Shown here piece by piece: positions 18,179-48,218 of a stretch of DNA of 64,000 nucleotides. Under the pieces are notes generated by a model. The model was not told where the DNA came from. It did no database searches and saw only the letters and a list, made by a program, of their open reading frames with translations. Origin of the DNA: Wenzhouxiangella sp. XN79A (GTDB lineage Bacteria; Pseudomonadota; Gammaproteobacteria; Xanthomonadales; Wenzhouxiangellaceae); NCBI RefSeq assembly GCF_012272825.1, contig NZ_JAAWWS010000146.1, forward strand, positions 1 to 64,000, written 5' to 3'. Position numbers and translations under genes: made by a program. Each line of letters begins with the position of its first letter. Position 1 is the first letter of the stretch.

Positions 18179-18182
18179 TTTC

Positions 18183-21734: not shown

Positions 21735-21760
21735 GCCTTGATTTCGGACAACACAGACCT

Positions 21761-24452: not shown

Positions 24453-25007
24453 ATGGCCGACCAGGCGAAAGAGCTCGAACGGGCGTTCCGGGCACTTAAG
24501 CAGGCACTCAAGGCCGCGAACATCGAGGCGCTGGAGCAGGACGCATTCGGCACCAGCCGGGAGCTGACCGGGATCATGGAACAGCTCGCCCGACTGCAGG
24601 CGCACGCGGTGTCCTTGTACACCGGTGCGCCGGCCCTCGCGCCGACCGCCCCCGCGCCTGCGCTGTCCGAGGACGCGACCTATCCGCGTTTCTTCCGCAC
24701 CGGCTCGACACTCTACAAGGAGGGCCTTCGGCAGGATGGCGAATCCATCTACGTCCAGAAGGTCGATCGAAGCGCCTTCGAGGAGATCTTCCGGTCGATC
24801 ACCGGGCAGAACCGCAGATTCAAGCCGGCGAAACTGATCAAGGAAGGGGCACACCCCAGCTACCAGGTCTACATCCTGCTGAACGTGATGCAGGAGGCGG
24901 GACTGGTCGAGAACCCGGAACGCGGTGTCTACCGGCTGACCCCGCAGGCGAAACAATACGATCCTCCTGGTTTCTGGAAGGCGATCGAGGAGCGGACAGC
25001 GCACTGA
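24453..25007 (+). CDS. Small winged-helix-like protein, first gene of the Argonaute-containing cluster
   Basis: 184 residues; ATG with AAGGA upstream. The N-terminal 60 residues are amphipathic helix (AKELERAFRALKQALKAAN), then an Ala/Pro-rich linker. The last 100 residues resemble a DUF-type winged helix that ends in a two-strand wing (YQVYILLNVMQEAGLVENPERGVYRLTP is the helix-wing region). No enzyme motif. Probably a DNA-binding regulator or structural subunit; an inverted repeat lies directly upstream. It is separated by 400 bp from the Mre11-like gene, so it may be its own transcript. Confidence 0.55.
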   Translation: MADQAKELERAFRALKQALKAANIEALEQDAFGTSRELTGIMEQLARLQAHAVSLYTGAPALAPTAPAPALSEDATYPRFFRTGSTLYKEGLRQDGESIYVQKVDRSAFEEIFRSITGQNRRFKPAKLIKEGAHPSYQVYILLNVMQEAGLVENPERGVYRLTPQAKQYDPPGFWKAIEERTAH

Positions 25008-25407
25008 GCTGCCGGAGGGGAGCACGCCAAAGGTGATCGTTCGTTTGTGACGTGTCACAAAGCCATCGCGCATCGCACCCTGGCTTGCCGGCTTGCCGGC
25101 TTGCGCAGGCTCTTCCCGGTTGGTCCCTGTGCAAGGCACGCGAGGCTGGCCCGATCCGGCATCCGGGCACTCGAAACCGGTCATCGACAACGACAGGACC
25201 CGCAGAAGAGCGACCGGCAGGACCCTTGCGGAAGTCGATTCCGCGACGCGGGATCCGGAATGCGAATTCCTCTTCCTTACCACGAGCGTCGGGCCGCATT
25301 CCTGTCGACGACCACAAAGCGACAGGAACCGTCCGGGGCATGTGCAGAATGAAGGGCTGACGTGCCGTGGGGCGGCGCGAAAGCAATGACATCGGGAGGA
25401 CGACATC
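25008..25407. promoter_or_regulatory. 400-bp leader of the Mre11/Rad50-like operon with an 18-bp perfect palindrome
   Basis: TTTGTGAC-GT-GTCACAAA at 25044-25061 is a perfect palindrome. It looks like a CRP/FNR-type site but with 4 rather than 6 bases between TGTGA and TCACA. GCTTGCCG is repeated almost three times at about 25083-25107. TCCTGTCG..CGACAGGA forms perfect 8-bp arms at about 25301-25328. GGGAGGA before 25408 is the ribosome-binding site of the next gene. Short open frames here look non-coding. Confidence 0.55.
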
Positions 25408-26682
25408 ATGACCACACGACTGCTCGCCGTCGGCGACATGCATCTGGGCCGCAGACCGTCGCGGCTGCCGGACGAACTGGCGCGCGATGGCGCTGCCTAC
25501 GGCTCCGCCGAAGCCTGGGAACGGATCGTGCGCCACGCGATCGACCTCGGCGTCGACGCCGTGGCGCTGGCCGGCGACCTGGTCGACCGGGACGACGACT
25601 TCTTCGAGGCCTATCGACTGCTGAAGGATGGCATCGCGCGGCTGGGCCGCCACGGCATCCGCGTCGTCGGCGTCGCCGGCAATCACGACGTAGAGGTGCT
25701 GCCACGCCTGGTCGAGGAGCTGCCCGATTTCCATCTTCTCGGCGAGGGCGGCGAGTGGGCGAGGCTTGACGTGGGCGAAGGACTGACCCTGCACGGCTGG
25801 TCGTTCCCGACCCGACGGGTCGATCGGTCTCCGCTGGCCGGACACGCCTTCGACCGCGGCCCCGGGGTGAACCTGGGCCTGCTGCACTGCGACCGGGACG
25901 TGCGCGACTCGCGCTATGCGCCGGTCTCCTCGGCCGAACTCGATGCGGCCGGCCTGGACGGCTGGCTGCTCGGCCACATCCACGTGCCGGATGCGCTGAC
26001 CGCGCAACGACCCAGCGGCTATCTCGGCTCCATCACCGGCATGCACCCCGGCGAGCACGGCGCGCGAGGCCCGTGGCTGATCCGTGTCTCGGGCGGGCGA
26101 ATCGAGTCGGTCGAACAGCAGCGCCTGGCGCCCCTGCACTGGGCACGGATGACGCTGGACCTGACCGGTATCGAACGGGCCGAGGACGTGGAGAACCGCC
26201 TGCTGCGTGAACTGGAGTTGCTGGATGACGCCCTCGACGGCCACTTGATGCCGCCCGAAGCGCTCGGCATCCGACTGCGTCTGACCGGCAGCACCGACCG
26301 GACCAACGACGTGGCCGCCCACCTGGAGGAACTCGAGAAGCGCAACGTGTCGGGCCACGGCACCCGATTCGCGTTCATCGAGAAATTCGAGCTCCACACG
26401 AAACCCGAGCGCGACCTGCATCGCCTGGCCGAGGAGACGAACCACATCGGCCTGCTCGCCCGGCGGCTGCTGGCGCTCGATGGTGCGCCCGGGAATGACG
26501 CCCGACGCGAACTGATCGAACGGGCCCGGGATCGACTGCGCGGTACGACCGAGGAATCCCGATGGCGCAAGCTGGAATCGCCACCCCTGGACGACGAGGC
26601 GATCGCCGACCGGTTGCGTGGCTCCGCTTCCCGTCTGCTGGAGCGTCTGATCGAGCAGCAGAACAAGGAGGTGACGCAATGA
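25408..26682 (+). CDS. Mre11/SbcD-like metallophosphoesterase (nuclease)
   Basis: 424 residues. The five phosphoesterase blocks are in order: GDMHLG (7-12), GDLVDRDD (about 58), GNHD (about 91), LLHCDRD (about 157, replacing the more usual GHD/AH) and GHIHVPD (about 190). The C-terminal 200 residues match the capping and Rad50-binding region of YhaO/SbcD-type nucleases. Mre11 homologues are Mn2+-dependent DNA nucleases that act with a Rad50/SbcC partner. The partner gene overlaps it by 4 nt (ATGA). The host's housekeeping SbcCD would be expected elsewhere, so this is probably an accessory pair. Confidence 0.85.
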   Translation: MTTRLLAVGDMHLGRRPSRLPDELARDGAAYGSAEAWERIVRHAIDLGVDAVALAGDLVDRDDDFFEAYRLLKDGIARLGRHGIRVVGVAGNHDVEVLPRLVEELPDFHLLGEGGEWARLDVGEGLTLHGWSFPTRRVDRSPLAGHAFDRGPGVNLGLLHCDRDVRDSRYAPVSSAELDAAGLDGWLLGHIHVPDALTAQRPSGYLGSITGMHPGEHGARGPWLIRVSGGRIESVEQQRLAPLHWARMTLDLTGIERAEDVENRLLRELELLDDALDGHLMPPEALGIRLRLTGSTDRTNDVAAHLEELEKRNVSGHGTRFAFIEKFELHTKPERDLHRLAEETNHIGLLARRLLALDGAPGNDARRELIERARDRLRGTTEESRWRKLESPPLDDEAIADRLRGSASRLLERLIEQQNKEVTQ

Positions 26683-29600
26683 AACTGGCCCGCATCGACA
26701 TCCGCAGCATGCCCGGCATCGGCCGGGGCTTCTCCATCGACGAGTTCGACGCCTGCACCAACTTCATCACCGGCCCGAACGGCATCGGCAAGAGCAGCGT
26801 CATCCGGGCCCTGCGCTATCTGCTGAACCCCGGCAAGGGCGACCCGCGAGATATTTCGCTGACCGCTGAATTCCACGACGGCGGATCGATCTGGACGGTC
26901 CACCGCAATGGAAGCAGCCCACCTGCGTGGGAGCGCGACGGACGGCCCGCCGAGCCGCCGCCACTGCCGATCGATGCGATCGCCAGCCACCTCATCGGCG
27001 TCGAGGACCTGATGAAGGTACAGGGCACCGACGAGCAGCGACTCGCGGCGGCGCTGCTTCGCGAACTGCAGGGCGGATTCGATCTCGAAGCGCTCCGGAA
27101 CGAGCAGGAGCGGCAATCGAAGGTCGGAACTGCCCAGAACCGCGCGCTGGAAGCTGCCGAGACGCAGCTCAGGGATGTCGAGCGCGAGCAGGCGCAGATC
27201 TTCAGGGACCAGCAACGGCTGCCGGAGCTCGAAGAAGGGATCCGAGACGCCGAGGGTGCTGCCCGCGATACCGATCGGCTCCGCCAGGCCCGCGAACTCC
27301 TCGTCGCGCGTCGCGAACTGACCGGCCTCGAAGAGCGGCGCCAGCGCCTCCCCGAAGGCATGGACCGGCTGCGGGGCCACGAACTCACTCGACTGGACGA
27401 ACTGGACGAGCGCCTGCGCCGCATCGCCGACGAGCAGCGCGAGCGGGAACGAACGCTTCAGGACGCGCGGCAGGCCCTCGCATCGACGGATCTCGAAGAC
27501 GAGCGCCCCGGAGCCGAAGAACTGGACCTGACGCAGGAACGACTGAGGCAGCTCGGGAACCTGGAAGAGAAGCTGACCGAGCAGCGGGCCACCGTCACCG
27601 AGGCCCGGACCCGCAGCCGGAGCGCGCGCGAACGCCTCGGTTCGAGGACCGACGAAGCGGCAGCGCTGCCCCGGATCGACGAGGACAGCGTCTCGAAGGC
27701 GCGCGAACTGGTCGGCCGCATCGACAGCGCCGAGCGGCGCCGCAGCGAGTACGAGAGCCTGCTTCGGGAGCGGACCGAGGAGACCGCGGGCGCCGACGCA
27801 GATTCACTGGTTCGCGGCACCACGCTGCTGCGCGACTGGCTCGCCGCACCCGTAGCGGGCAGCGTGGCCGGGAACCGCCCGCCCTGGCTCGGAATCGGCA
27901 TCGCGGTGCTCGGTGCGGCCGCTGCGGCAGCGCCGGGCCTGGGCGCACCCGGCTGGCTGGGCCTCGTCGGCGCGGGCCTGGTGGTGGTCGGCCTGGTGCT
28001 GGTCGGAATGACGCGCCCGCGCACGACCGCGAGCCCGGCCGACGCCGAGGCGGAAAAGTACCGTGCCCTGCAACTGCCGCAGCCCGAGCGCTGGGACCGC
28101 GACTCGGTGCGACAACTGCTGGCCGACCTCGACCGCAGGCTCGCCGCGCGGAAGGTCGAGGACGAACGCGGGCAGCGACGCGAAGGCTGGCGTAAGGAAA
28201 TGGAACGCGCGGAGCGCGAACTCGGAGCACTGGAAACCCAGCGAGAGGCCCTGGCGACCGAACTCGGATTCGACCCCGCTCTGCTGCGCGAGCACGGCGA
28301 CTTCCTGGGGCGCCTGCACGCCTGGCAGCAGGCCGTCGATTCGAAGAACGTGGCCGAAGCACGGGCCGAAGCACTGGAGCGCGAGCACACTGGGACGCGA
28401 GAACTCGTCACCGACTTCCTCGCCGGCCGACCGGGTGTACCGGAGACGCTGCCGACGCGTCATGACGAACTGACCGCCGTGTTCGAGGAACTGCGCGAGC
28501 GCTGCCGTCGGGCCGAGGAGGCGCAACGGACCATCGACAGCACCCGCCGGGAACTGAAGGGTCTGCGCGAACGCGCCGAAACCGAAGCACGGAGCCGCGC
28601 GGCCGTGTATCGCGATGCCGGGCTGGAGGACGGTCAGCGCCGCGAGCTGGAGGAGCGCATGGAGCGGCTCGACGACTGGCAGGCGCTCGACCGGGACCTC
28701 GACGGCGCCCGGCGCATCGTCGACGATCGGCGCGCGAAGCTCCAGGATCATCCCGAGCTGATCGAGATGGCGGAACGTGGTGCACTGGAAGACCTCGAGC
28801 GCCGTCTCGAGGACGCGGTGCGAAAGAGCGAGGGACTGGAAGGACTGAAGGATGAGCGGGCCCGGATCCAGGAACGGGTCCGAGTCGCGGAATCCCGGCA
28901 CGATCGCGAGTCCGCGCTGGCCGAGGTCCGCGCCCGTCAGGAAGAGCTCGAAGACGTGCGCGAACGTGTTCTGGACGCGGATACCTGGCACTTCCTGATC
29001 GAACAGATCGAGGACGAGTACCGTTCCGAGAAGGAACCCCCGGTGCTCGAAGCCGCCCGCGACCACTTCCGCCGGTTCACCCACGGCCAGTGGGAGCTCG
29101 ACCTCGACAAGGACGGCGACGATGCCTTCCGGGCGCGCGACACCGTGCAGGAGAAGTGGCGCCGCCCCGCGGAACTGTCCACCGCCACGCGCATGCAGCT
29201 GCTGCTGGCGCTGCGCATGGCGCATGCGCAGGTATCCGAGGGCCGGAGCACCGAGGACGGGCATGGCGCAGCGCTGCCCCTGCTGATCGACGAAGCGCTG
29301 ACCACCAGCGACCACGAACGGGCCGGCGTCATCCTGCGCAACTTCGACCAGCTGGCCGCCGAAGGCCGCCAGATCATCTACCTGGCCGCCGGCGATCACG
29401 AGCACCGCCTGTGGGCACACGCCACCGGCCACGCGCCGAAGCGCATCGACCTGGGCGAGATCCGGGGACGGACGGATCGGTCCGCTTCGCCGGACTTCGA
29501 ACCGCCTGCGAAGCGGGAGATTCCGGAACCCGGCGATCGCTCCCCGGCCGACTACGCGAAGGCGCTCGACGTGCCGGCGATCGACCCGGGGGCCGAGCCC

Positions 29601-30185
29601 GGCGGAATCCACGCCTTCCACCTGCTGCACGACGAACTGCAACTGCTGCACGCACTGATGCAGGACTGGCGCATCGACAAACTGGGCCAGCTGGAATCCC
29701 TGCTGGAATCCGCCGCAGCCGCACGCGCGATCCCGGACGGCGATCTGCGCGAAACCCTGCGCGAGCGCTGCCGGATCACCCGGGACTGGGTGGACGCCTG
29801 GCGCGTCGGGCGGGGCCGGTCCGTCACCCGTGAGACGCTCGAGCTGGCGAAGGAAGCCGGCGCCCTGTCCGACAGGAACATCGAGGGCGTCGCTCACTGC
29901 GCGGAAGAGTGCGGCTGGAACGCCCAAGCCCTGCTCGAACGGCTGGAAGAGCCGTTCGACTGGGACGCGGACACCCATCGTCGATTGAATGCCCCCAAAC
30001 GCAAGGAACTCGCCGAACTCCTTCGCGAGCAGGGCTACGTCGACGACCGCGAGCCGCTGACCGCCGATGCCCGACGCCAGCGCGTGCTGCTCCGGCTCGA
30101 TCGGAACACGCCCGTGGCGAGCGCGCAGGCACAGGTGGATTGGTTGGAGGGTGCAAGCCACAACCATGTTCGCCCACCAGCCTGA
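26679..30185 (+). CDS. Rad50/YhaN-like SMC ATPase with membrane hairpin and C-terminal extension
   Basis: 1168 residues; start overlaps the upstream stop and has AAGGAGGTG. Walker A GPNGIGKSS lies at about 32-40; the signature LSTATRMQLLLALR and Walker B LPLLIDEAL lie near 830-870. Between them are long coiled coils, interrupted at about 405-450 by two hydrophobic helices (IGIAVLGAAAAAAPG and VGAGLVVVGLVLVG), a feature of the YhaN branch. After the ATPase core there is an extra helical part of about 240 residues (from about 925) that I do not recognise. It should form a DNA-processing complex with the Mre11-like protein. Confidence 0.85.
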   Translation: MKLARIDIRSMPGIGRGFSIDEFDACTNFITGPNGIGKSSVIRALRYLLNPGKGDPRDISLTAEFHDGGSIWTVHRNGSSPPAWERDGRPAEPPPLPIDAIASHLIGVEDLMKVQGTDEQRLAAALLRELQGGFDLEALRNEQERQSKVGTAQNRALEAAETQLRDVEREQAQIFRDQQRLPELEEGIRDAEGAARDTDRLRQARELLVARRELTGLEERRQRLPEGMDRLRGHELTRLDELDERLRRIADEQRERERTLQDARQALASTDLEDERPGAEELDLTQERLRQLGNLEEKLTEQRATVTEARTRSRSARERLGSRTDEAAALPRIDEDSVSKARELVGRIDSAERRRSEYESLLRERTEETAGADADSLVRGTTLLRDWLAAPVAGSVAGNRPPWLGIGIAVLGAAAAAAPGLGAPGWLGLVGAGLVVVGLVLVGMTRPRTTASPADAEAEKYRALQLPQPERWDRDSVRQLLADLDRRLAARKVEDERGQRREGWRKEMERAERELGALETQREALATELGFDPALLREHGDFLGRLHAWQQAVDSKNVAEARAEALEREHTGTRELVTDFLAGRPGVPETLPTRHDELTAVFEELRERCRRAEEAQRTIDSTRRELKGLRERAETEARSRAAVYRDAGLEDGQRRELEERMERLDDWQALDRDLDGARRIVDDRRAKLQDHPELIEMAERGALEDLERRLEDAVRKSEGLEGLKDERARIQERVRVAESRHDRESALAEVRARQEELEDVRERVLDADTWHFLIEQIEDEYRSEKEPPVLEAARDHFRRFTHGQWELDLDKDGDDAFRARDTVQEKWRRPAELSTATRMQLLLALRMAHAQVSEGRSTEDGHGAALPLLIDEALTTSDHERAGVILRNFDQLAAEGRQIIYLAAGDHEHRLWAHATGHAPKRIDLGEIRGRTDRSASPDFEPPAKREIPEPGDRSPADYAKALDVPAIDPGAEPGGIHAFHLLHDELQLLHALMQDWRIDKLGQLESLLESAAAARAIPDGDLRETLRERCRITRDWVDAWRVGRGRSVTRETLELAKEAGALSDRNIEGVAHCAEECGWNAQALLERLEEPFDWDADTHRRLNAPKRKELAELLREQGYVDDREPLTADARRQRVLLRLDRNTPVASAQAQVDWLEGASHNHVRPPA

Positions 30186-30189
30186 TGCA

Positions 30190-30198
30190 GGGGGGGGG
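30190..30198 (+). repeat. Run of nine G residues after the SMC gene
   Basis: The homopolymer starts 5 bp after the stop codon of the SMC gene. It is outside any recognised frame. Such tracts slip readily. The remaining gap to 30330 has no gene; AGGGGAAGG ahead of 30330 is the next ribosome-binding site. Confidence 0.6.
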
Positions 30199-30329
30199 CG
30201 GCTTCGATCGGACGAGAAATCGACGGTGACGCCAACGCAATTCTGGAAAAACCGCACTGCTCCGCGCTACCATGCAGCGGGGAATGGCACCCTCGTCCGG
30301 AAACAAGGTGAGTAGCGAAGGGGAAGGCA

Positions 30330-31478
30330 ATGTCGGATTTCAGGCTTCCTGAATGGCAGGAGCTTTCGCGGGACGAGCAGATCCCGATCATCAACCTGCC
30401 CACGGACAAGACCTACTTCGTCCGTGGCGGACCCGGAACGGGAAAGAGCATCCTCGCGATCCACCGCGTGGCAAGGCTTCGCGATCTCGAACCCGACACG
30501 CCGGTCAAGCTGCTGGTCTACAACAAGCCGTTGCAGCTCCATCTCGATGACGCGCTGAATGCTGTCGGCCTTGGCTCGGGAACCGCTCAGACCTGTCACT
30601 CATGGCTCTGGCACATGACCCGATTCAAACCGCCCTCGAATGTCTGGAACTACGATTGGAAGCGGGTCCGCGAAATCATCGACAAGAAGGCCAACGGAAA
30701 CAAGATCATCGGGCACCTCATCATCGACGAGTGCCAGGATGTGCCCGCTCCCCTGCTGGAAATACTCGCGACCTGTTCCGAGAACGCGACCATTTTCGTG
30801 GATGACAAACAGGCCATCAGTGCATCGGCGAGGGAGCATGGACTCTGTCAACTTGCAGAGATCCGTACGATCTTCGATCAGGGGCCGAACCGGACGTTCG
30901 ATCTCAGTCGCAACTTCCGCAACAGCCAGCCGATTCTCGACGCGGCACACGCACTCCGACCTCCGCAGACCTACGAGATACCCGACAACGCGATTCGAAA
31001 GGAGGGTCCGAAACCTTCGCTACGACGAGCGGACATCGATGAGGTCGTCGAGCGGGTCGAGACCTATCATGCGAACAATCCGGCAGACAGGATCGCGATC
31101 GCTGTTCCTCGGAGTCGTTCGCGCGCACTTCTCGGCAAGCTCGAGGCCTCGGAAGTGCCGACGCAGTTCTACAGCAACAAGAACGCCAACGATGGCACCT
31201 ACAGCGCGACAGCCAAAGGGGCAACCGTACTTGCCCACGACATGATGAAGGGCCTCGAGTTCGACGCGGTCTTCATGCCGTTTCTCGAAACGCCGGAGCT
31301 TCATGCGGAAACCGACCCGGAACTGGTGGAGACCAACCAGAATCTCGTCTATGTCGTTGCCACGCGAGCACGAAGCTACCTGGAGTTTTCGCATTCGGAA
31401 GATCTTCCGACTTCATGGCTGACCCGAGCGCTCGAAAGAGCGTGCTCCGAGGGGCAGATACGCCGAGCTTCCGACTGA
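30330..31478 (+). CDS. Compact UvrD-like (SF1) helicase/ATPase
   Basis: 382 residues, half the usual UvrD length. Visible motifs: Walker A FVRGGPGTGKS (about 31-41), motif Ia LVYNKPLQLHL, Walker B LIIDECQDVPAPL (about 131), motif III VDDKQAIS, motif IV LSRNFRNS, and the C-terminal KGLEFDAVFMP and YVVATRARSYL. Accessory 1B/2B domains are missing or reduced. Likely an ATP-driven DNA translocase. It stands in the middle of the co-directional run from 25408 to 43779. Confidence 0.85.
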   Translation: MSDFRLPEWQELSRDEQIPIINLPTDKTYFVRGGPGTGKSILAIHRVARLRDLEPDTPVKLLVYNKPLQLHLDDALNAVGLGSGTAQTCHSWLWHMTRFKPPSNVWNYDWKRVREIIDKKANGNKIIGHLIIDECQDVPAPLLEILATCSENATIFVDDKQAISASAREHGLCQLAEIRTIFDQGPNRTFDLSRNFRNSQPILDAAHALRPPQTYEIPDNAIRKEGPKPSLRRADIDEVVERVETYHANNPADRIAIAVPRSRSRALLGKLEASEVPTQFYSNKNANDGTYSATAKGATVLAHDMMKGLEFDAVFMPFLETPELHAETDPELVETNQNLVYVVATRARSYLEFSHSEDLPTSWLTRALERACSEGQIRRASD

Positions 31479-31509
31479 AGCGACTTTGTGGACCAACCCG
31501 GAATACAAG

Positions 31510-33390: not shown

Positions 33391-33402
33391 GCGACAGGAA
33401 TC

Positions 33403-34761
33403 ATGGCGAGCGCAACCCCGGCCACGGCGATCGAAACGCTCGAACGACTTCGAGCCGGCGGGCACTGGAAAACCGCGTTCGAGACCGCGCGGGCAGCAGA
33501 AGAGGGTGCACGCCCGGAGGGATGGAATGACGCCTCTCTGATCGACGTCTATCAGGAGTGCCTGGTCAGGGGACTGACGTTCGATTCGGATCCGGTCACG
33601 TTCCTCGACGCCTGCAGGAGACTGTCCCGACTCCTGTTCCGTTACGGAAGGTCGCGAGAAGCGAGCAACTACCTCCTGCTCCTGCGCGATCTCTCTGCCG
33701 ACAAGGCAAGCGTTCCGCCGTGGGCGTGGGCGTATTCCGCGAAACTGGCGTATCAGGAGGACCTCGACTACTGCATCCGTAAACCCCGCGAGGTCACCGA
33801 GCCGATCGAGAATGCGCTTTCAGCGAATCCCGAAAGCGCCCAGGCGTCAGCGGTGCTGGCCGATTTCATCAACACCGCGACCCGGCGCCTCTCGGAACAG
33901 GCCGATGGACGACTGGCCGAGAATCTTTCGGCCGAAGTCACCCGATTTCTCGATGGCCGACCCCTTCCCGACAGAGGGCGGATCGAGGAAGCGCTGGCTC
34001 GCCTCGATCGGCTCACCGACGGAATCGAGGGCCCTGCGGCAGAACCGGACATCGAGCCCGATCGGGACCGGACCGAAGCACGGGAATGGCAAGCAGAGGT
34101 CGACGCACTCGGGGAACGACTCGCCCGCGCAACCGAATCGGCCGACGAGCTCGAAGCGCGCAATACGACGCTCGAAAACGAGAATCAGGAGCTTCGCTTG
34201 CAGCTTCACATGCTGCGGGAACAGGCCGATCAGCGATCGACGTCGGTGGGCCGACTGACCGATCTGATCCTGCGTCTCGAGGATCGCCTGAAGGCACTGG
34301 AACACGACTGGAAATCTGCGCAGCAGAGCACGCCCGTCGAAACTCCGCCGGAGGAACCCGCTGCTCCGGAGCCATCGGGGGAGCTCCTGCCTCGACGCTC
34401 CCGCATCGTGGTCGTGGGCGAGTCGCGGGTCGCCGAGCCGCAATTGGCCGGCATCTGCAAGAGCCTGGGCATCGAGAAGGACCGGGTCGAGTTCCACCTT
34501 TCCTACAAGGCGTTCGACACACTCGATATCAACACCTTGCAGTACAACGATTCCGTAGCGGGCATCCTGATCGGGCCCGTTCCGCACAAGGTGCCGGGAA
34601 TGGATGATCCCGCTCAGGCCCTGCTGACGAAGGAGGGCTTTCCGCCTACCGTGAAGATCCTGAACAGCAGCGGCGTGCTGAAGATCACGAAATCGTCCTT
34701 CCGGGAGTCTCTCCGCGGCCTGCTCACCCTGATCGCATCGGTGGAGCCCGGTGGCAACTGA
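33403..34761 (+). CDS. Helical/coiled-coil protein with a C-terminal Rossmann-like domain
   Basis: 452 residues. The first 170 residues look like TPR-type helical repeats (LERLRAGGHWKTAFETARAA, then ACRRLSRLLFRYGRSREA). A coiled coil runs from about 225 to 315. The C-terminal 105 residues are alpha/beta: RIVVVGESRVAEPQLAGICK, then LGIEKDRVEFHL, AGILIGPVPHKVPG and VLKITKSSF. They resemble an uncharacterised small domain seen in many bacterial and phage proteins, distantly DUF2325-like in outline. Likely a scaffold or sensor for its neighbours. The PIWI gene starts 33 bp downstream. Confidence 0.7.
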   Translation: MASATPATAIETLERLRAGGHWKTAFETARAAEEGARPEGWNDASLIDVYQECLVRGLTFDSDPVTFLDACRRLSRLLFRYGRSREASNYLLLLRDLSADKASVPPWAWAYSAKLAYQEDLDYCIRKPREVTEPIENALSANPESAQASAVLADFINTATRRLSEQADGRLAENLSAEVTRFLDGRPLPDRGRIEEALARLDRLTDGIEGPAAEPDIEPDRDRTEAREWQAEVDALGERLARATESADELEARNTTLENENQELRLQLHMLREQADQRSTSVGRLTDLILRLEDRLKALEHDWKSAQQSTPVETPPEEPAAPEPSGELLPRRSRIVVVGESRVAEPQLAGICKSLGIEKDRVEFHLSYKAFDTLDINTLQYNDSVAGILIGPVPHKVPGMDDPAQALLTKEGFPPTVKILNSSGVLKITKSSFRESLRGLLTLIASVEPGGN

Positions 34762-34794
34762 CCGGGAACAGCCCGTACCGAAGGTGACACAGGA

Positions 34795-36378
34795 ATGAGC
34801 GGCCCCGACCAGGACCGGCCCGGGACCGAGCTCGCGGCGACGCTGTTCGAACTCGATCCGCCAACCGCGTGGAGCAACGGTCGGGAGTTGCTGGACGCCC
34901 TGCTCCATGACTGTGCACGAGCATCGCGAGGCGAGCTCGCATCGATCGACAGCGACCGCCCGACCCTGGTCCTTCCCTCGTGGGGCCGAAAGGACCACCC
35001 GACGCTCGGACTCCATCGCCTGGTCGATCTCCGCTTTCGGGTCCTGTGGCCGGCAAGTGACTCACCCGGGCTCGAGGTCTGCGCCGGCAACCGCTTCATG
35101 CTGCACTCCGAGCGCGCCGGCACGGGTGCCGAACCGATATCGCCCGCGAAGATCCACGCGCGATTTCCCGAAGCAGCGCAGTGGCTGCGGAGTGCCAGCG
35201 ACCTCTCCCTGACGACCCATCTGCACGCAGCTTCGGTCTGGTTCCGCGCGGCACGGGCTGCCGGATGGAATCCCGAACGCATTCCGCTGGAGCCGGTCGA
35301 TCAGCCGGCCCTCGCGATTCGGAACGGCAAGGGTAGCAGTGCCCTGGAGGAACCCTTCAAGTCGATCGTCATCGGCCGCGTACCTCTCCGCAGCCCGAGC
35401 AGGGTCGATCTGACGATCGTCGGCCGAACCATGAACGGCCAGGCCTCGGCAGCGATCGAAGCGGCGTTCCGCAAGTGGTGGCCGGACCTTTCGATTTCGA
35501 TCCGCAAGACCGAGATTCTCCGTGATCGCCTCATGGAACCGCCCGCGATCGGCGTGCTCATGATTCCGGACAACGAGGACATATACGACTCGCCCTGGAT
35601 CGACTGGCTGCGGGCCAGCGAAGCTGCAGGGCATCGGTTCCGGATCGTGCGCGAATCGACCCTGCGGTCTTCGAGCGCATGCACCAACCTGGCCTTCGAC
35701 CTGTTCATGCTCGCCGGCGGCATTCCGTGGACTGCTGCCGTGAGCGAACGGGACGGAGCGGTGCTGGGACTCGATGCCGGGCACGATCGAGACCGACGAC
35801 GTTCCCGCTGGGTGTGTTCACGAGTGGAAATCGACGAGAACGCGATCTCGTGCAGTATCGTCGGCACCGAGCTCGCTGAACATCTGCCGGGGAGCGCCAT
35901 CGACAGGCTGCTGCCCGAGGACCGCGCTCGGCGAGCGCTGACCGTATTCCGCGATGGTCGCTTCCATACCGAGAGCCGCCAGGAGATCTCGCCCAACGGC
36001 ATGACCGTATCGGTCGTCAAGCATCCACGGGCCGTGCTCTACCGGAACCGCGACGGAAAGCTGCATCCGGCACGATTCGGTGATGCCCTGATCTATCCGG
36101 ACAGCCGGTTACTGCTGCAGACCAGCAGCAACAGGGATACCGTCTCCGGCTGGAAGATGCCGATCCGGATCGGCGTGAACGATCCGAACCTGATATCGAG
36201 GGCGACCTCGCTCACTACCCTTCTGTGCCGGCAACCTGCGCTGGGCGTGTTCCACCAACCCCGACTGCCTGCGCCCGTCTACTGGGCCGATCTGATCTCG
36301 AAGACCACGGCCGATGGCTGGCCCAAGGTGGTCGGGCGTGGCCTGGGCCTCGAATCGATCATTCCCGAGCGCAAGTAG
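34795..36378 (+). CDS. Prokaryotic Argonaute-like protein (MID-PIWI)
   Basis: 527 residues. The MID region (about 190-310) ends with IGVLMIPDNEDIY and FDLFMLAGGIPW, the GG-PW turn that precedes PIWI in Argonautes. The PIWI core shows LGLDAGHD (Asp327), VFRDGRFHTE (Asp387), VSVVKHPRAVLYR, FGDALIYPDSRLLLQTS, MPIRIGV and the final APVYWADLIS (Asp499). Asp327, Asp387 and Asp499 fit three positions of the DEDX catalytic tetrad; the Glu finger is not certain (Glu350 is one candidate). The N-terminal 190 residues match no known N or PAZ domain. A compact pAgo with a probably active slicer site is unusual, because the short pAgos linked to SIR2 or TIR are inactive. Confidence 0.8.
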   Translation: MSGPDQDRPGTELAATLFELDPPTAWSNGRELLDALLHDCARASRGELASIDSDRPTLVLPSWGRKDHPTLGLHRLVDLRFRVLWPASDSPGLEVCAGNRFMLHSERAGTGAEPISPAKIHARFPEAAQWLRSASDLSLTTHLHAASVWFRAARAAGWNPERIPLEPVDQPALAIRNGKGSSALEEPFKSIVIGRVPLRSPSRVDLTIVGRTMNGQASAAIEAAFRKWWPDLSISIRKTEILRDRLMEPPAIGVLMIPDNEDIYDSPWIDWLRASEAAGHRFRIVRESTLRSSSACTNLAFDLFMLAGGIPWTAAVSERDGAVLGLDAGHDRDRRRSRWVCSRVEIDENAISCSIVGTELAEHLPGSAIDRLLPEDRARRALTVFRDGRFHTESRQEISPNGMTVSVVKHPRAVLYRNRDGKLHPARFGDALIYPDSRLLLQTSSNRDTVSGWKMPIRIGVNDPNLISRATSLTTLLCRQPALGVFHQPRLPAPVYWADLISKTTADGWPKVVGRGLGLESIIPERK

Positions 36379-36466
36379 CCATATCCGGGCTTCCGTAAGC
36401 GCCACCGCACCTTCACCGTTTATCATCGGACCTTGGACCTCAGAGAATCGGGCATAGGGGCCATCC

Positions 36467-39400
36467 ATGGGGGCACGGCAGTTCCTCGAAGAAATCCAGC
36501 TGAGACCGGCTCAGACCGAGATCGGCGCATTCGAACCGATCGGGCTGGCGCTGGGCAACGGCAAGCAGGCACTGGAAGTGCTGGTCGTCCGGGCCGGCAC
36601 CGTTCCGGCTGCGGGCGCGATCCGAAAGGTCTGGGCCGAGCGGAACGGCGGGCGGGCGGCCCCGCTGCTGGTGGCCGTGCTGGTCGAGGACCGATGCATC
36701 CTCTGCGGCCCGGGCGGCGACAATCCGCCTGTCTCGCCGCTGCTGGATGCTGCCCAGGCCGAGCGGATCTGCCTGGCCGCGCTCGAAGCCCCGGACCGCC
36801 ACGCGGCCCGGCGACTGCTGCAGGAGCTGCTGCCGACGCTCGAACAGGACGTGCCGGGACTTAGGAACGCCGGACTGTTCGCCACCCATGAGCTGTTCCA
36901 CGGTGCACGTGCGCTACCCGAGTGGGAAACGGCCGAAACGAAGGCCCGCGGGATCCGGGGCCGGCCGGAAGGTGCCGCGCTGCTTCAGGCGTTGGACTTC
37001 GAGCTCGAGCACACCGACCGATTGATCAATTTCCTGTATGCACGCGGCAAGCGGCGGGCCGCCGCGGTGGTCCTGAACGCCTCGGAAGCCCCGGAAGCCG
37101 ACCTCGATCGGTTCTCGGGCCAGTCGCCCGTGGCCTATGCGCTCCACATCGCCGACCGCGAGGGGCTTCCGTACGTCATCGTCACCCAGAAGGGCCGCTT
37201 GCGCCTCTATCCGACCGCCATCGACGCGGGCGTCGGGCGGCGCGGGCGGACCGAGACCTTCGTCGAGCTGAACACGGACGTCCTGTCCGAGGAGCTGGCC
37301 GCCTATCTCTGGCTGCTGTTCTCGGCCGACGCGCTGTGCGAGGGCGGCACGATCGAGCGGCTGCTGGCCGATTCCGAGCGCTATGCGGGTGATCTGGCCG
37401 AGAACCTGCGCGAGCGGGTCTATCACAAGGTGGTGCCTGCGCTGGCCGAGGCGTTGATCGCCGCGCGCGATCTCCAGGAGCCGACCGAACGCGAGCTGGA
37501 CGAGACCTACCGCATGACCATGCTGGTCCTGTTCCGGCTGCTGTTCATCGGCTACGCCGAGGACAAGGACCTGCTGCCCTACCGCTGGAACGAAGCCTAC
37601 CGTGCCCGCTCGCTGACCCAGAAGGCCCTCGAACTGCTGGCCCAGCACGAGGAAGGCACGGCCTTCGACGACGACGATTCGCTGTGGCAGGAAACGATGC
37701 GGATCTTCCATGCGATCGACCGCGGCCGGACCGAATGGGGTATCCCGGTCTACAACGGCGGCCTGTTCACGTCCGATGTAGCGATCTCCCCGATCGGCCA
37801 TGCGCTCGAGTCGATCGCGTTGCCGAACACGGCCTTCGGCCCGGTACTGCGCGACCTGCTGCTGATGGACACGGCCGAAGGCCTCGGCCCGGTCGACTTC
37901 CGTAGCCTGGGCGTGCGCGAGTTCGGGACGATCTACGAGGGCCTGCTCGAAAGCGAGCTGGCCGCCGCGCCCGAGGACCTCGCCGTCGACAAGGACGGCA
38001 GCTACCGGCCGGCGAAGAAGAAGGACGCCGTCGTCGTGGCTCGCGGCGAGGTCTTCCTGCACCGCTCCGGACAGCGCAAGTCGACGGGCAGCTATTTCAC
38101 GCCCTCCTACATCGTCGACCACCTGCTGGATATGGCGCTGGAGCCGGCCCTGCGCGACCACCTCGCGCGGCTGGAGGCGCTGGACGACGACGAGGCCGCC
38201 CGCGCGCTGTTCGACTTCCGCATCACCGACATCGCCTGCGGCTCGGGCCACTTCCTGATCGGCGCGATCGACCGCATCGAGCGTGCCTTCTCGGGCTTCC
38301 TCGCCGAGCGCAACCTGGCCGCCGTCCGCAAGGAGCTGGCCGACCTGGCCGGCTCCGCAAGGCGCCAGCTCGGTCGGCTCGAGGACGAGATGCCGATCGA
38401 GGACGGCCAACTGCTCCGCCGCCTGATCGCCCGGCGCTGCATCTACGGCGTCGACATGAATCCGGTCGCGGTCCAGCTGGCCCGGCTGGCGGTCTGGGTC
38501 CACACCTTCGTGCCGGGCCTGCCACTTTCGCTGCTCGATCACAACCTGGTCTGCGGCAATTCGCTGGTCGGCATCGGCGACGTCGGCGAGATCGAGGACG
38601 CACTGGCCGGCGACGAGGCCGACCTGTTCTCGATCTCGACCCGCGAGCTGGTGGGTGATGCGATGGAATCGCTCGAACGCCTCGGACGCATCGCCGATGC
38701 CTCCGCGACCGAACTGGACAGCGCCCGCGACGCCCACGAGGCAGCCCGCAACGCGATCCTGCCGGCGAAGCACCTCTGCGATCTGGTCACCGCGACCCGG
38801 CTGGAGGGCGAGGACTTCGCGCTGCCCCCCGGTTCCTGGACCCAGGTCCGCGAGGAGATGGAAAAGCTGGCCTCGGAATACGCTTCCGTGGCTCGACTGT
38901 CCCGAATGAACCCGCTGCATTTTCCCGTGGCCTTCCCGGAGGTCTTCCTGCGCGAGCGACCGGGCTTCGACGTGATCCTCGGCAATCCGCCCTGGGAAGA
39001 GGCGACGGTCGAGGAAGACGCCTTCTGGGCCCGGCACCGGCCCGGACTGCGCGGATTGAAGCAGAGGGAGCAGGAGGAATTGAAGAAGGACCTCCAGCGC
39101 ACCCGGCCCGATCTGGCGAAGCAGTTCGAAGCAGAGAAGCAGCAGGCAGAAACCCTTCGCAAGGCGCTGATGGCCGGCCCCTACCCGGGCATGGGTACCG
39201 GTGATCCGGATCTGTACAAGGCCTTCTGCTGGCGCTTCTGGGGCCTGCTGGCCGAGGGTGGCCGTTTCGGCGTGGTGTTGCCGCGCTCGGCGCTGATCGC
39301 CAAGGGGTCGACGGAGTTCCGGCAGCGGCTGTTCTCCAGCGGCGGATCGGTCGAGATCACGATGCTGCTGAACAATCGTCAGTGGGTGTTCTCAGAGGTC

Positions 39401-40507
39401 CACCCCCAGTACACCATCGGTCTCTGTGCCTTCCGAAAGGCTCCCGGTGAGACCACCTCGATCGAACTGCGCGGGCCGTTCCATTCGCGGGATCGCTTCG
39501 AGCGCTTCGGCGGCTTCGAGGGCGAGCGCTTCGACTTCGACGAGATCGGCCGGATGTCGGCCTCCTGTGCGCTGCCGTTGCTTCCCGACGCCCGCTCGCA
39601 TGGGCTGCCCGCCGACCGCTCGCGCCGGATCATGAGCCGGATGAGCGAGCACCCGGCGCTCGGCGACGAAGACGCCGGCGACTGGTCGATCCGGCTGGCG
39701 ACGGAGTTCCACGCCACCAACGACAAGAAGCACTTCGACATGAAATCCGTCGACTGCCCGGACGGCTTCTGGCCGGTCTACAAGGGCGCGTCGTTCGACC
39801 TGTGGACGCCGGATACCGGGACGTACTATGGCTGGGCGGATCCGGAGCACGTGGTTCCGGTGCTGGAGCAGAAGCGGGCGCGTGCCTCCAGAAATTCTCG
39901 CTCGGCCTTCAATGAAATGCCCGAGGACTGGATCAACGACAAAAGCACCCTGCCCTGCCTGCATCCGCGGATCGCTTTTCGGGACATCACGAACCGCACG
40001 AATACGAGAACCTGCGTAGCCGCACTTCTTCCGCCTGACGTGGTCTGCGTCAATGCGGCGCCATATCTTCTCTGGCCCCGCGGGTCACAAACCGACGAGG
40101 CCTTCCTGCTGGGAGTCATGTCTTCCCTGCCATTCGACTGGTACGCTCGCCGATTCGTCGAAACGCATCTGAACTATCACGTCCTCTACCCGTTGCCGGT
40201 ACCGCGCCCTGCGCAGGACGATCCGCTGCGCCTTGGGATGATCCGCACCGCTGGCCGCCTGGCCGCCGTCGACGAACGCTACGCGGACTGGGCGTCGGCC
40301 ATCGGCGTTGAATTCGGCCCACTCGACGAGGCCGAACGCGAGCGGCTGATCCATCGGGTCGACGCGCTGTCGGCCCGGCTCTACGGACTGGACCCCGAAC
40401 TGATCGAACACCTGTTCGCGACCTTCCACGAAGGCTGGGATCATCGACCCCGGCTGGAGGCCGTCCTCGCGCAGTACCACGAACTCGAATCGGAGTCGGC
40501 TCGATGA
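36467..40507 (+). CDS. Large N6-adenine DNA methyltransferase (Eco57I/PglX-like)
   Basis: 1346 residues. Methyltransferase signs: KSTGSYFTPSYIVDHLL (about 537), motif I DIACGSGHFLIGAI (about 588), YGVDMNPVAVQLARLAVW, LDHNLVCGNSLVG and motif IV ILGNPPWEE (about 837). Some 500 N-terminal residues precede it, and a target-recognition-like region closes the protein. Size and layout match type IIG/ISP, BREX PglX and DISARM DrmMI enzymes. No PD-(D/E)XK motif is obvious at the N-terminus. The stop overlaps the start of the helicase gene (ATGA), so the pair is translationally coupled. Confidence 0.85.
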   Translation: MGARQFLEEIQLRPAQTEIGAFEPIGLALGNGKQALEVLVVRAGTVPAAGAIRKVWAERNGGRAAPLLVAVLVEDRCILCGPGGDNPPVSPLLDAAQAERICLAALEAPDRHAARRLLQELLPTLEQDVPGLRNAGLFATHELFHGARALPEWETAETKARGIRGRPEGAALLQALDFELEHTDRLINFLYARGKRRAAAVVLNASEAPEADLDRFSGQSPVAYALHIADREGLPYVIVTQKGRLRLYPTAIDAGVGRRGRTETFVELNTDVLSEELAAYLWLLFSADALCEGGTIERLLADSERYAGDLAENLRERVYHKVVPALAEALIAARDLQEPTERELDETYRMTMLVLFRLLFIGYAEDKDLLPYRWNEAYRARSLTQKALELLAQHEEGTAFDDDDSLWQETMRIFHAIDRGRTEWGIPVYNGGLFTSDVAISPIGHALESIALPNTAFGPVLRDLLLMDTAEGLGPVDFRSLGVREFGTIYEGLLESELAAAPEDLAVDKDGSYRPAKKKDAVVVARGEVFLHRSGQRKSTGSYFTPSYIVDHLLDMALEPALRDHLARLEALDDDEAARALFDFRITDIACGSGHFLIGAIDRIERAFSGFLAERNLAAVRKELADLAGSARRQLGRLEDEMPIEDGQLLRRLIARRCIYGVDMNPVAVQLARLAVWVHTFVPGLPLSLLDHNLVCGNSLVGIGDVGEIEDALAGDEADLFSISTRELVGDAMESLERLGRIADASATELDSARDAHEAARNAILPAKHLCDLVTATRLEGEDFALPPGSWTQVREEMEKLASEYASVARLSRMNPLHFPVAFPEVFLRERPGFDVILGNPPWEEATVEEDAFWARHRPGLRGLKQREQEELKKDLQRTRPDLAKQFEAEKQQAETLRKALMAGPYPGMGTGDPDLYKAFCWRFWGLLAEGGRFGVVLPRSALIAKGSTEFRQRLFSSGGSVEITMLLNNRQWVFSEVHPQYTIGLCAFRKAPGETTSIELRGPFHSRDRFERFGGFEGERFDFDEIGRMSASCALPLLPDARSHGLPADRSRRIMSRMSEHPALGDEDAGDWSIRLATEFHATNDKKHFDMKSVDCPDGFWPVYKGASFDLWTPDTGTYYGWADPEHVVPVLEQKRARASRNSRSAFNEMPEDWINDKSTLPCLHPRIAFRDITNRTNTRTCVAALLPPDVVCVNAAPYLLWPRGSQTDEAFLLGVMSSLPFDWYARRFVETHLNYHVLYPLPVPRPAQDDPLRLGMIRTAGRLAAVDERYADWASAIGVEFGPLDEAERERLIHRVDALSARLYGLDPELIEHLFATFHEGWDHRPRLEAVLAQYHELESESAR

Positions 40508-43500
40508 ACGACGCCCTGCAACTCGATCTCGCCGCGCGACCGGCCTTCGTCGACAACCGCGACGGCAATACTCTGGCCGACGCTCTGACGCGGCATCTCG
40601 CCGCGGCCCGCCAGCTGGACGGCGCTGCACCGGAGCTGTGCATCGCTTCGACCTTCTTCAACCTCGGCGGCTTCGCCTCGGTGGACGCGGCACTGAAGGG
40701 CATGGAAGCGGTCCGCCTGCTGCTCGGCGCCGAGCCGATGCCCGAATCGCACCGGCCTGCCGACCAGACCGAGCGCGAGGCGCTGCAGCACGCCCTCGAC
40801 GATCTCGACGAAGGTCTGAAGCGGCACCGGGACCTGCTGCCCTTCGATCGACTGACCACCGACCGGGTGCGCCGCCTGCTCGAGTTCCTCGCGCGGGACA
40901 GCGTCCGCGTCCGGCTGCTGGACCGGGGTTTCATGCACGCCAAGATGTGGCACCTGCGCAGCCCGCACGGCGGCCTGGTCGTCGGCTCGTCGAACTTCAC
41001 CGCCGGCGGCATGAAGCGGAATCTGGAGCTGAACCTCGGCCACGGCGACCCGGCGATCGTCAACCGCGTCGCCGACTGGTACGACGAGCTCTGGGCGCAG
41101 GCCACCGACTTCGATATCGCCGCCTACTACGCCCCACTGTTGGACTTCCACGCGCCCTGGCTGGTGTTCATGCGGGTACTCTACGAGCTCTACGGCGCCG
41201 AACTCGAGGCCGAAGCGCAGGAAGGCGGCATTCCGCTGCTGCAGTTCCAGAAGCACGGCGTGCAGCGCGCGATCCGTCTGCTGGAGCGCTACCACGGCGT
41301 GCTGGTCGCCGACGGCGTCGGCCTCGGCAAGACCTACACGGCGGGCGAGCTGATGTCGCGCTACGTCCGCAATCGCCAGCGAGTGCTGCTGGTCGCGCCG
41401 GCCGCACTGCGCGACTCGACCTGGAAGAAGTTCCTGTCGAAACACCAGCTGTTCGCCGAATGCGTGTCCTACGAAGAGCTCGGCCGCGATCGCCAGCTGG
41501 GCGGCGACGAGGTCAAACTCGACCGGCCGATCGACGAGTACGCGCTCGTGGTGGTCGACGAGGCCCACGCCTATCGCAACCCGTCCGCACCCACCCGCGC
41601 CGGTGTGCTGCGCCGTCTGTTGCAGGGCCCGCGCCGCGATCTCGTACTGCTGACCGCGACTCCGGTCAACAACTCGCTGTGGGACCTGTTCCACCTGCTG
41701 CGCTTCTTCCTGAAGCAGGACGCCGCGCTGGCCGATCAGGGCATCCTGTCGCTGAGCGAGCGGTTCAAGGAAGCGATGAAGGAGGATCCGTTCGATCTCA
41801 ACCCCGACCTGCTGTTCCCGATCATCGATGCCGTCACGGTCAAGCGCACGCGCCACTTCATCGCGAAGCACTACCGCGACGACATGATCGAGGACAGCGA
41901 GGGCAACCTCCAGCCGATCCGCTTTCCGAAGCCGGTCGCGCGCTCCATCGATTACGACCTGGAAGCCCTCCTGCCGGGCTATCTCGACCGCATCGAGGCC
42001 GTGCTGGCGCCGGATTCCGGCAGCGACGGCCTGCGGCTGGCCCGCTACAAGGCCGAGAAGTACCCGGCGGGCAGCCGGCCCGATCCCGAGGACACGGCGC
42101 TGGTCGGCCTGCTGCGCTCCCAGCTGCTGAAGCGCTTCGAATCCTCGGTGCACGCGTTCCGGCTGAGCCTCGAGCGGATGATCGAGGAACACGAACGTTT
42201 CCTCGAAGCCCTCGCCGGCGGCACCGTCGCGACCAAGGAGCTGCTGCAGGAAATCTCGGCCGCCGACGATCAGGAGGACATCGAATCCCTGCTGGCCGAC
42301 CATCCCGGCGGGCGCCCGGCGCGCGAATTCAACGTCGAAGAACTGCGCAAGGACGTCGACCACGACCTGGGCCTGCTGCGCGAACTGCTGGACCCATTGC
42401 GCGCCGTCCGCGCCGAGGACGATCCGAAGCTTCATCGACTGGTGCAAGTACTCGACCGGATCGCGAAGGATGCGGAGCGCGACGGTCTGGACCCGGCTGC
42501 CGCTCGAACGAACCGCAAGGTGCTGCTGTTCTCCTACTACGAGGATACGGTGCACTGGGTCCGTCGTTTCCTGGAACGGCGGGCCGCGGAAGACGATCGG
42601 ATGAAGATCTACGCCGATCGGATCGTTTCGGTGGCGGGCGACAGTTCGAGTCAGGGCGAGTCGCGCGAATCGGTCGTCGCCTCGTTCGCGCCACGTTCGA
42701 TGGAGAACCCGGATCCCGAGGACGATCGCTTCGACCTGCTGCTGGCCACCGACGTGCTGGCCGAGGGCGTGAATCTCCAGCAGTGCCGGAACATCATCAA
42801 TCTCGACCTGCCGTGGAATCCGATGCGACTGGTCCAGCGCCATGGTCGCGTCGACCGGATCAACAGCCCGCACGAGCGGGTTTTCCTCCACACCTTCTTC
42901 CCCGACAGGCAGCTCGATCGCCTGCTCCGGCTCGAGGAGCGGGTCCGCCACAAGCTGGCCCAGGCGGCCGCCTCGGTCGGGCTGGACGAGGCACCCATCG
43001 CGGATGCGGAGGGCGCGGCTCGATCGTTCACCGAAACCCGTGAAGAGATCGAACGCCTGCACGAGGAAAGTGCCGAGCTGTACGAACGAGGCGGCACCGA
43101 GTCAGCAGCCCAGTCCGGTGAGGAATATCGAGAACAGCTCCGCCGCGCACTTTCACGGCGTCGCCGCGAGATCGTCGAACTGCCCTGGAAGGCCGGCTCG
43201 ATCATCCGGAGCGATGGCGAGAGCGGACACGTCTTCTGCGCCCGGGTCCGCGACCGGACCTATCTCCGCTTCGTCCCGTTGGACCCGGATGCGCCTGTCG
43301 ATGACGAGATCGGCAGTTGCCTGCGACGCTTCGAGTGCGAGGAGAACGCCGAGCACCTCATGGACGGTGAGCTGATCGACACCGCCTTCGACGCCTGGGC
43401 CCGCGCAAGAAGCGATATCCACTCGGCCTGGATGCACGAGACCGACCCTGCAAATCTGCAGCCGAGACTCCGCCCGGTCAGCCGACGCATCGCGGAGCAG

Positions 43501-43779
43501 CTCTCGGAGCACCCGCCGACGAGGACTCCGGCAGAGCAACTCGAGCGCTGGATGGAATGCGCCGAATCACCGATTCCGCTGCGGGAAGAGCGCGTGCTGC
43601 GAGAAATCCTGGATCGAGAAGGGCTCGATGAGGAACAACGGTCGAAGCTCCTCGGCGAGGCGATGGACGAACTCGGACTCGAACCCTTCCATGCACCGGA
43701 TCCGCTTGATCCCGTTCCGGAGGAAGAAGTGCGGCTCGTCTGTTGGCTCGGGCTTCGATCCAGTCCGACGTCGGATTGA
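40504..43779 (+). CDS. PLD-SNF2 helicase coupled to the adenine methyltransferase
   Basis: 1091 residues. N-terminal phospholipase-D-like domain: one HxK block, FMHAKMWHLRS..VVGSSNFTAGG (about 143-170), a nuclease signature. SNF2/SF2 helicase core: motif I DGVGLGKTYTA (about 272), motif II VVDEAHAYRN (about 351), LLTATPVNN, and C-terminal LLLATDVLAEGVNLQQC, LPWNPMRLVQRHGRVDRI (about 765-785). The remaining 300 residues are helical and charged. With the methyltransferase it forms a two-gene restriction-like unit reminiscent of DISARM class 1 (drmD and drmMI), but drmA, drmB and drmC are absent. Confidence 0.88.
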   Translation: MNDALQLDLAARPAFVDNRDGNTLADALTRHLAAARQLDGAAPELCIASTFFNLGGFASVDAALKGMEAVRLLLGAEPMPESHRPADQTEREALQHALDDLDEGLKRHRDLLPFDRLTTDRVRRLLEFLARDSVRVRLLDRGFMHAKMWHLRSPHGGLVVGSSNFTAGGMKRNLELNLGHGDPAIVNRVADWYDELWAQATDFDIAAYYAPLLDFHAPWLVFMRVLYELYGAELEAEAQEGGIPLLQFQKHGVQRAIRLLERYHGVLVADGVGLGKTYTAGELMSRYVRNRQRVLLVAPAALRDSTWKKFLSKHQLFAECVSYEELGRDRQLGGDEVKLDRPIDEYALVVVDEAHAYRNPSAPTRAGVLRRLLQGPRRDLVLLTATPVNNSLWDLFHLLRFFLKQDAALADQGILSLSERFKEAMKEDPFDLNPDLLFPIIDAVTVKRTRHFIAKHYRDDMIEDSEGNLQPIRFPKPVARSIDYDLEALLPGYLDRIEAVLAPDSGSDGLRLARYKAEKYPAGSRPDPEDTALVGLLRSQLLKRFESSVHAFRLSLERMIEEHERFLEALAGGTVATKELLQEISAADDQEDIESLLADHPGGRPAREFNVEELRKDVDHDLGLLRELLDPLRAVRAEDDPKLHRLVQVLDRIAKDAERDGLDPAAARTNRKVLLFSYYEDTVHWVRRFLERRAAEDDRMKIYADRIVSVAGDSSSQGESRESVVASFAPRSMENPDPEDDRFDLLLATDVLAEGVNLQQCRNIINLDLPWNPMRLVQRHGRVDRINSPHERVFLHTFFPDRQLDRLLRLEERVRHKLAQAAASVGLDEAPIADAEGAARSFTETREEIERLHEESAELYERGGTESAAQSGEEYREQLRRALSRRRREIVELPWKAGSIIRSDGESGHVFCARVRDRTYLRFVPLDPDAPVDDEIGSCLRRFECEENAEHLMDGELIDTAFDAWARARSDIHSAWMHETDPANLQPRLRPVSRRIAEQLSEHPPTRTPAEQLERWMECAESPIPLREERVLREILDREGLDEEQRSKLLGEAMDELGLEPFHAPDPLDPVPEEEVRLVCWLGLRSSPTSD

Positions 43780-48139: not shown

Positions 48140-48218
48140 TTGCATTCCCTCCCTGAAGGCTTTGCGTCATTCTGCTTGTCAGTCGGCCTTTTCGACCTAT
48201 CGGAATTCACGCGCCGGG

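Follow-up and report, generated by a model that had tools for sequence, protein, structure and literature searches.

A rare, compact and apparently PAZ-less Argonaute in a Wenzhouxiangella gene run that probably consists of three separate modules

In the 2018 census of prokaryotic Argonautes (pAgos) by Ryazansky et al., all short pAgos lacked the catalytic tetrad, long pAgos without PAZ made up a small group, and tetrad-bearing enzymes were confined to the long-A clade (PMC6299218). Catalytic long-A pAgos are about 700-740 aa in length; in one of them, KmAgo, the catalytic tetrad is D527, E562, D596 and D713 (PMC11385924). Short pAgos (SPARTA, SPARSA) and truncated long-B pAgos (AfAgo) are MID-PIWI proteins of about 430-530 aa without PAZ, encoded among defense genes, which have no DEDX tetrad and act together with SIR2, TIR or nuclease partners (PMC6299218, PMC10954474). 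The operons of AfAgo-type pAgos encode the N half directly upstream (PMC10954474). PIWI genes are also found in pPIWI-RE systems, together with an REase and a DinG-type helicase, and in the haloarchaeal pAgo-PLD arrangement (Ago/AgaP), in which a catalytically active pAgo is found near a PLD-family protein (PMC11442185). No system pairing a pAgo with Mre11 or DISARM partners was found in the literature.

The window analyzed here is a stretch of 64,000 nucleotides from the 3.75-Mb genome of Wenzhouxiangella sp. XN79A (contig NZ_JAAWWS010000146.1, positions 1 to 64,000). Between 24453 and 43779 it contained nine open frames, all co-directional, as the first-pass annotation had described (Table 1). 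Domain and motif searches also bore out most of that annotation's domain calls; the exception was the winged-helix call, for which a sub-threshold Mrr_N similarity was the one match obtained. The protein in question is possibly a regulator. The phosphoesterase, the ATPase, the SF1 helicase, the methyltransferase and the PLD-SNF2 helicase all had their signature motifs intact.

Table 1. Genes of the run, with the matches and motifs on which their names are based
Feature	Coordinates	Strand	Evidence and remarks
Winged-helix candidate, 184 aa	24453..25007	+	Weak Mrr_N-like similarity, E 0.0015, sub-threshold; 400 bp upstream of Mre11
Module 1, Mre11-like calcineurin-type phosphoesterase (Mre11), 424 aa	25408..26682	+	Pfam Metallophos 5.9e-13; GDMH, GDLVD, GNHD, GHIH
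Module 1, Rad50/YhaN-like SMC-family ATPase, 1168 aa	26679..30185	+	AAA/SMC_N; Walker A/B; 4-bp overlap with Mre11
Module 2, compact SF1 helicase (SF1), HelD/UvrD core, 382 aa	30330..31478	+	AAA_19, SLFN-g3, UvrD_C
Module 2, U5, 634 aa	31486..33390	+	TTG start (ATG possible a few codons in); sub-threshold NNH1 only
Module 2, U6, 452 aa	33403..34761	+	TPR-like N part, coiled coil, conserved-looking C-terminal ~120 aa
Module 2, compact MID-PIWI Argonaute (PIWI), 527 aa	34795..36378	+	PADLOC pAgo 1.8e-11; putative tetrad D327-E362-D387-D499
Module 3, Eco57I-type N6-adenine methyltransferase (MT), 1346 aa, type IIG/DrmMI-like	36467..40507	+	PADLOC, Pfam Eco57I; DIACGSG, NPPW
Module 3, PLD(HKD)-SNF2 helicase (PLD-SNF2), 1091 aa	40504..43779	+	PLDc_2, SNF2, Helicase_C; 4-bp overlap with MT

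Intergenic distances in gene order were 400, -4, 144, 7, 12, 33, 88 and -4 bp. By spacing, the genes from Mre11 on formed three groups: Mre11 and the ATPase (module 1), SF1-U5-U6-PIWI (module 2), and MT and PLD-SNF2 (module 3). Within the groups the distances are -4, 7 to 33 and -4 bp, and between them 144 and 88 bp, so the overlaps and tight spacing are internal to the groups. The earlier description of several neighbors as overlapping or less than 35 bp apart applies within the groups and not at the gaps of 400, 144 and 88 bp. Two neighboring systems had been offered as an alternative division of the run; the split at 36378/36467 was kept, and a further one at 30185/30330 was added. GC3 was 0.82-0.84 in module 1, 0.70-0.78 in module 2 and 0.84-0.86 in module 3, and all four module 2 genes fell below both flanking modules; composition (GC3 and codon use) was taken only as supporting evidence for the module boundaries. 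A promoter and terminator scan gave chance numbers of hits, none of which stood out at a boundary. Because the nine genes are co-directional and every gap from 25408 on is at most 144 bp, a single transcript is possible. The run is probably part of a defense island and made up of three modules that evolve separately and follow one another head to tail; this three-module division, which draws on comparative evidence as well as on gene spacing and composition, is itself the probable one.

Analysis of module 1 showed that it occurs independently of the rest of the run. A search of 229 genomes of the class found Mre11 relatives with 45-50% identity in four genomes (G321, G254, G188 and G195); the same Wenzhouxiangella genome carries a further Mre11 gene on its contig C33, whose product is 43% identical to that of the window. 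The ATPase gene adjoined Mre11 at all five of these loci. None of SF1, U5, U6, PIWI, MT and PLD was encoded in the fetched flanks of the five loci, which were unequal in length and in G188 and G195 ended at contig ends. The genes beside the other pairs were mostly housekeeping-looking, as judged from their sequences alone. The C33 pair (L065 7092-12103) has such a context, and its upstream gene is shared with the G254 copy. Given the C33 copy and the housekeeping-looking flanks of the other copies, the window pair is best read as an island-borne paralog of a chromosomal pair, and it may have a role in repair or in defense. Phosphoesterase motifs together with a Walker A/B ATPase in overlapping genes are features of the Mre11-Rad50/SbcCD type, and the order of a phosphoesterase gene followed by an overlapping Rad50-like ATPase gene is that of SbcCD, Mre11-Rad50 and YhaO-YhaN. 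However, the window pair scored far under the SbcD and Rad50 equivalog cut-offs; it belongs to a separate subfamily, one that has a second, paralogous copy on the chromosome.

Module 3 was also found on its own. MT matched the PADLOC IIG profile at 5.9e-290 and DrmMI at 6.8e-72, and PLD-SNF2 matched an HKD+Snf2 profile at 4.3e-52. Near full-length relatives of PLD-SNF2, 36-45% identical, were found on plasmids of Halalkalicoccus, Halorubrum, Mycobacterium, Euzebya, Rhodococcus and Paenarthrobacter, and a chromosomal relative, 47% identical, in genome G145; the hosts were archaea, actinobacteria and one proteobacterium. An MT homolog (825-1311 bits) lay directly upstream of PLD-SNF2 in each of the seven loci with full-length relatives, and near these loci there was no homolog of the other seven window proteins, PIWI included. 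This conserved pairing of MT with an adjacent restriction helicase is a feature of type IIG-like restriction-modification (RM) pairs, and module 3 is complete in itself as a pair of genes of the predicted restriction-modification kind. MT would protect host sites, and PLD-SNF2 would translocate on unmodified DNA and then cut.

DISARM (DrmMI, DrmD) shares with module 3 a large N6-methyltransferase and an SNF2 helicase with a PLD/HKD domain, and MT and PLD-SNF2 are clearly similar to DrmMI and DrmD, although against the DrmD NCBIfam profile PLD-SNF2 reached 173.7 bits where the cut-off is 610. Module 3 differs in consisting of two genes only; DrmA and DrmB (DUF1998) were absent among the nine genes and the scanned flanking genes. 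It also resembles one part of type 2 BREX-related systems, namely their HKD helicase with N6-methyltransferase (PMC12839542), but neither DUF499 nor DUF3780 was found in the cluster.

The first-pass assignment of 34795-36378 to the PIWI family was backed by sequence comparison. Besides the match to the PADLOC pAgo profile, a two-sequence profile built from the window PIWI and its one clear relative matched KmAgo in the PDB (7.9e-5), and a profile comparison with seven pAgos gave a probability of 82.6% (E 9.6e-6). AlphaFold runs with one or two sequences yielded pLDDT values of 31-32, so support for the PIWI fold comes from sequence only. On these comparisons the protein is a genuine and very rare Argonaute. 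Single-sequence searches returned no relatives in plasmids, viral contigs or genome contigs, and there were none in the 100 nearest other genomes or in 368 others of the class. A motif-alignment scan of genome contigs found the one clear relative, from Marinobacterium iners (34-35% identity, 1e-39), along with two weak ones. The scan alignment was centered on the pAgo GGIPW block and required the pattern [LI][YFL][AMV][KL][LA]GG[IV]PW, so relatives that lack this pattern would be missed. In three of its four pAgo rows one residue at or beside the motif had been edited, which broadened the pattern; the edits affect only the choice of candidates, since the relative was confirmed with the natural window protein. 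The two-sequence profile found no further relatives in 96 relatives of the Marinobacterium genome, and searches with the Marinobacterium protein found none in phages or plasmids. The best alignment between the two proteins covered residues 247-524, with more identities in the N-terminal part, and their lengths were 508-527 aa.

In the alignment made with the two-sequence profile, D327, E362, D387 and D499 of the window protein fell on D527, E562, D596 and D713 of KmAgo, a correspondence counted column by column by hand. In the Marinobacterium protein these four residues are identical, and the conservation of blocks common to both proteins (LDAGH..D...SRW, RDGR.H and RLP.PVYWADL) points to selection acting on the active site. 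By contrast, no canonical MID 5'-phosphate pocket was evident by eye: the window protein has W268 where pAgos carry Y, and the residue before GGIPW, a K in pAgos, is L in the window protein and K in its relative. About 180 residues precede the MID region; Pfam found no PAZ in the N-terminal part, and the protein thus does not show an N-PAZ-MID-PIWI architecture. It is predicted to be a compact, apparently PAZ-less Argonaute that is probably slicing-competent.

The window protein shares MID-PIWI and the aligned tetrad with catalytic long-A pAgos, KmAgo being nearer than the Aquifex Ago, but differs from them in its size, in having no recognizable PAZ, in lacking the conserved 5'-guide pocket residues, and in the remoteness of its sequence. 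With short pAgos and AfAgo it shares the compact size, the absence of PAZ and a place among defense genes, but not the missing tetrad, and the presence of D327, E362, D387 and D499 led to the rejection of an ordinary short pAgo. Since short pAgos in the census have no tetrad and PAZ-less long pAgos are few, the protein either represents a truncated branch of long-A-like pAgos or forms a lineage of its own. No APAZ-SIR2, TIR or nuclease partner was found beside it, and U5 and U6 match no such family. The PADLOC pAgo profile PDLC02397 matched in 20 of 398 genomes, the window genome included; the other pAgos have little sequence in common with the window PIWI, and Mre11/SMC, SF1, U5 and U6 were not among their neighbors.

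The combination of helicase and PIWI genes in one run recalls pPIWI-RE systems. The window PIWI matched PADLOC PprPIWI weakly (6.1e-8), and the same profile was the best PADLOC match of the Marinobacterium protein (4e-11), but Pfam pPIWI-RE domains gave no match up to E 10 when the two halves of the window protein were searched. The triad of REase, DinG helicase and PIWI was also missing: the run has an SF1 helicase in place of DinG, and no REase match was found in the cluster. As in the haloarchaeal pAgo-PLD arrangement, a pAgo of predicted catalytic activity is found near a PLD domain; the window PLD domain, however, is fused to SNF2 and is part of the independent MT pair.

The other three genes of module 2 gave fewer leads. 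SF1 was HelD/UvrD-like by profile comparison with solved structures, and its family was rare: in the phylum sample, 2 of 397 other genomes had a member. SF1 relatives on plasmids and in genome G661 adjoin DrmA and DrmB, often with a protein of unknown family after them, which indicates that such helicases serve with DISARM-like partners elsewhere. At five loci (L002 8874-16845, L003 7020-13077, L004 7062-14828, L005 2734-10464 and L080 8569-16544) the compact helicase gene comes right after DrmA-like and DrmB/DUF1998 genes; an unknown protein of 460-577 aa is encoded next in four of the five, and three of these proteins are clearly related (alignment A1). A minimal DISARM-like cassette, found on plasmids and one chromosome, is a possible reading of these loci. 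Neither U5 nor U6 had a confident family match, and no plasmid relatives of either were found. Homology between U5 and the protein that follows SF1 in the DrmA-DrmB cassettes was not detected, and the C-terminal part of U6 had no relatives in 184 other genomes of the class.

SF1-U5-U6-PIWI, spaced by 7, 12 and 33 bp, was found at the window locus only, so its cohesion is judged from spacing alone. A four-gene operon is probable. That the four genes act as one functional unit is a more tentative proposal, and slightly more tentative again is the fuller reading of module 2 as an undescribed Argonaute defense operon, with a new lineage of compact, PAZ-less, slicing-competent pAgo, a non-canonical guide pocket and a dedicated helicase and adaptors. 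In such an operon, SF1 would open or move along invader nucleic acid, PIWI would hold a guide in its divergent MID pocket and use its DEDD site to cut the target paired with that guide, and U5 and U6 might be scaffold or accessory subunits.

The run had originally been read as a single nine-gene system, in which MT labels self DNA and the fragments that guide PIWI come from Mre11/SMC and the helicases. A system of nine or eight genes would account for the co-directional, compact layout, and among 20 genomes with other pAgos there are two partial parallels: in G835 a DrmMI-like MT stands beside a Sir2-pAgo pair, and in G674 a PLD-SNF2 gene is near an opposite-strand pAgo. However, modules 1 and 3 recur elsewhere without PIWI, and for that reason, on small co-occurrence counts, the nine-gene system was rejected; any cooperative system of this kind is very improbable. 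The check set for it, co-occurrence of PIWI with Mre11/SMC or MT, also went against it within the genomes covered: the only clear PIWI relative found has none of these genes, nor any other neighbor gene of the window PIWI, nearby. The single mechanism is not supported. Functional links among the independently mobile modules are conceivable. The separate-module result keeps a false nine-gene system from being named.

A finer division, into four modules, would leave PIWI alone and make SF1-U5-U6 a further separate module. The Marinobacterium PIWI is in keeping with this, as it has no SF1, U5 or U6 neighbor and no match to these proteins or to Mre11 was found in its genome, such blanks in a single genome being weak evidence alone; SF1 relatives stand beside other partners, DrmA-DrmB especially, and codon use in U6 is nearer to Mre11 and MT than to PIWI, with which its correlation is only moderate (0.77). 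Against it are the close spacing of the four genes, their shared low GC3, and the fact that no free-standing SF1-U5-U6 cluster is known, and the four-module division is rather unlikely. Least probable of all is a split Argonaute, in which U6 (or U5) is the missing N-L1-L2 half of PIWI as AfAgo-N is for AfAgo: the end of U6 is 33 bp upstream of PIWI, in the position of the AfAgo N half, but U6, mostly TPR-like and coiled coil, does not resemble N-L1-L2; no such partner accompanies the Marinobacterium protein, which is of similar length; and the window PIWI itself carries about 180 residues ahead of its MID region. U6 as an N-L1-L2 half found no support. Three modules, with PIWI in the second, remain the preferred division.

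If the prediction is correct, a pAgo family of 508-527 aa with an intact DEDD site is an exception to the 2018 census (PMC6299218). A compact, tetrad-bearing PIWI might be a small programmable nuclease, and it raises the question of how such a protein holds a guide when PAZ is missing and the MID pocket is altered.

Genes flanking the run include those for a C5-methyltransferase, a NERD-kinase protein and GmrSD, in keeping with a defense island, annotation outside 24-44 kb being partial. On the minus strand at 16913-24169, where GC falls to about 48%, are genes for the C5-cytosine methyltransferase, a DUF6339 protein, two unrecognized proteins (one PDC-M33A-like) and the PglW-like NERD-kinase protein, which look like another defense cassette. 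Downstream, the GmrSD/Orf5-type gene (44128-45816) lies beside a minus-strand gene (45914-48145) for a 743-aa protein with matches to sigma-70 region 4 and the RNA polymerase alpha C-terminal domain.

Several pAgo loci elsewhere had neighbors of their own. In Marinobacterium, type I RM genes and a Schlafen-AlbA_2 gene precede the PIWI gene, and after it comes a cluster encoding vWA, a PP2C phosphatase, a protein kinase and an AAA_11/AAA_12 helicase (L090 9323-17182). In G835 (L029 703-14155) the Sir2-pAgo pair is directly downstream of the DrmMI-like adenine MT and is followed by DpdH-like and PDC-M65A/B genes. After the PLD-SNF2 gene of G674 (L036 1713-12401), which is next to the opposite-strand short-pAgo pair, comes a frame of 1101 aa that is weakly similar to methyltransferases. 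A Bacteroidetes pAgo (L092 4634-10903) is encoded directly downstream of a SIR2-domain protein, and further upstream in the same run is an E2-ThiF-JAB fusion gene, an unusual pAgo neighbor.
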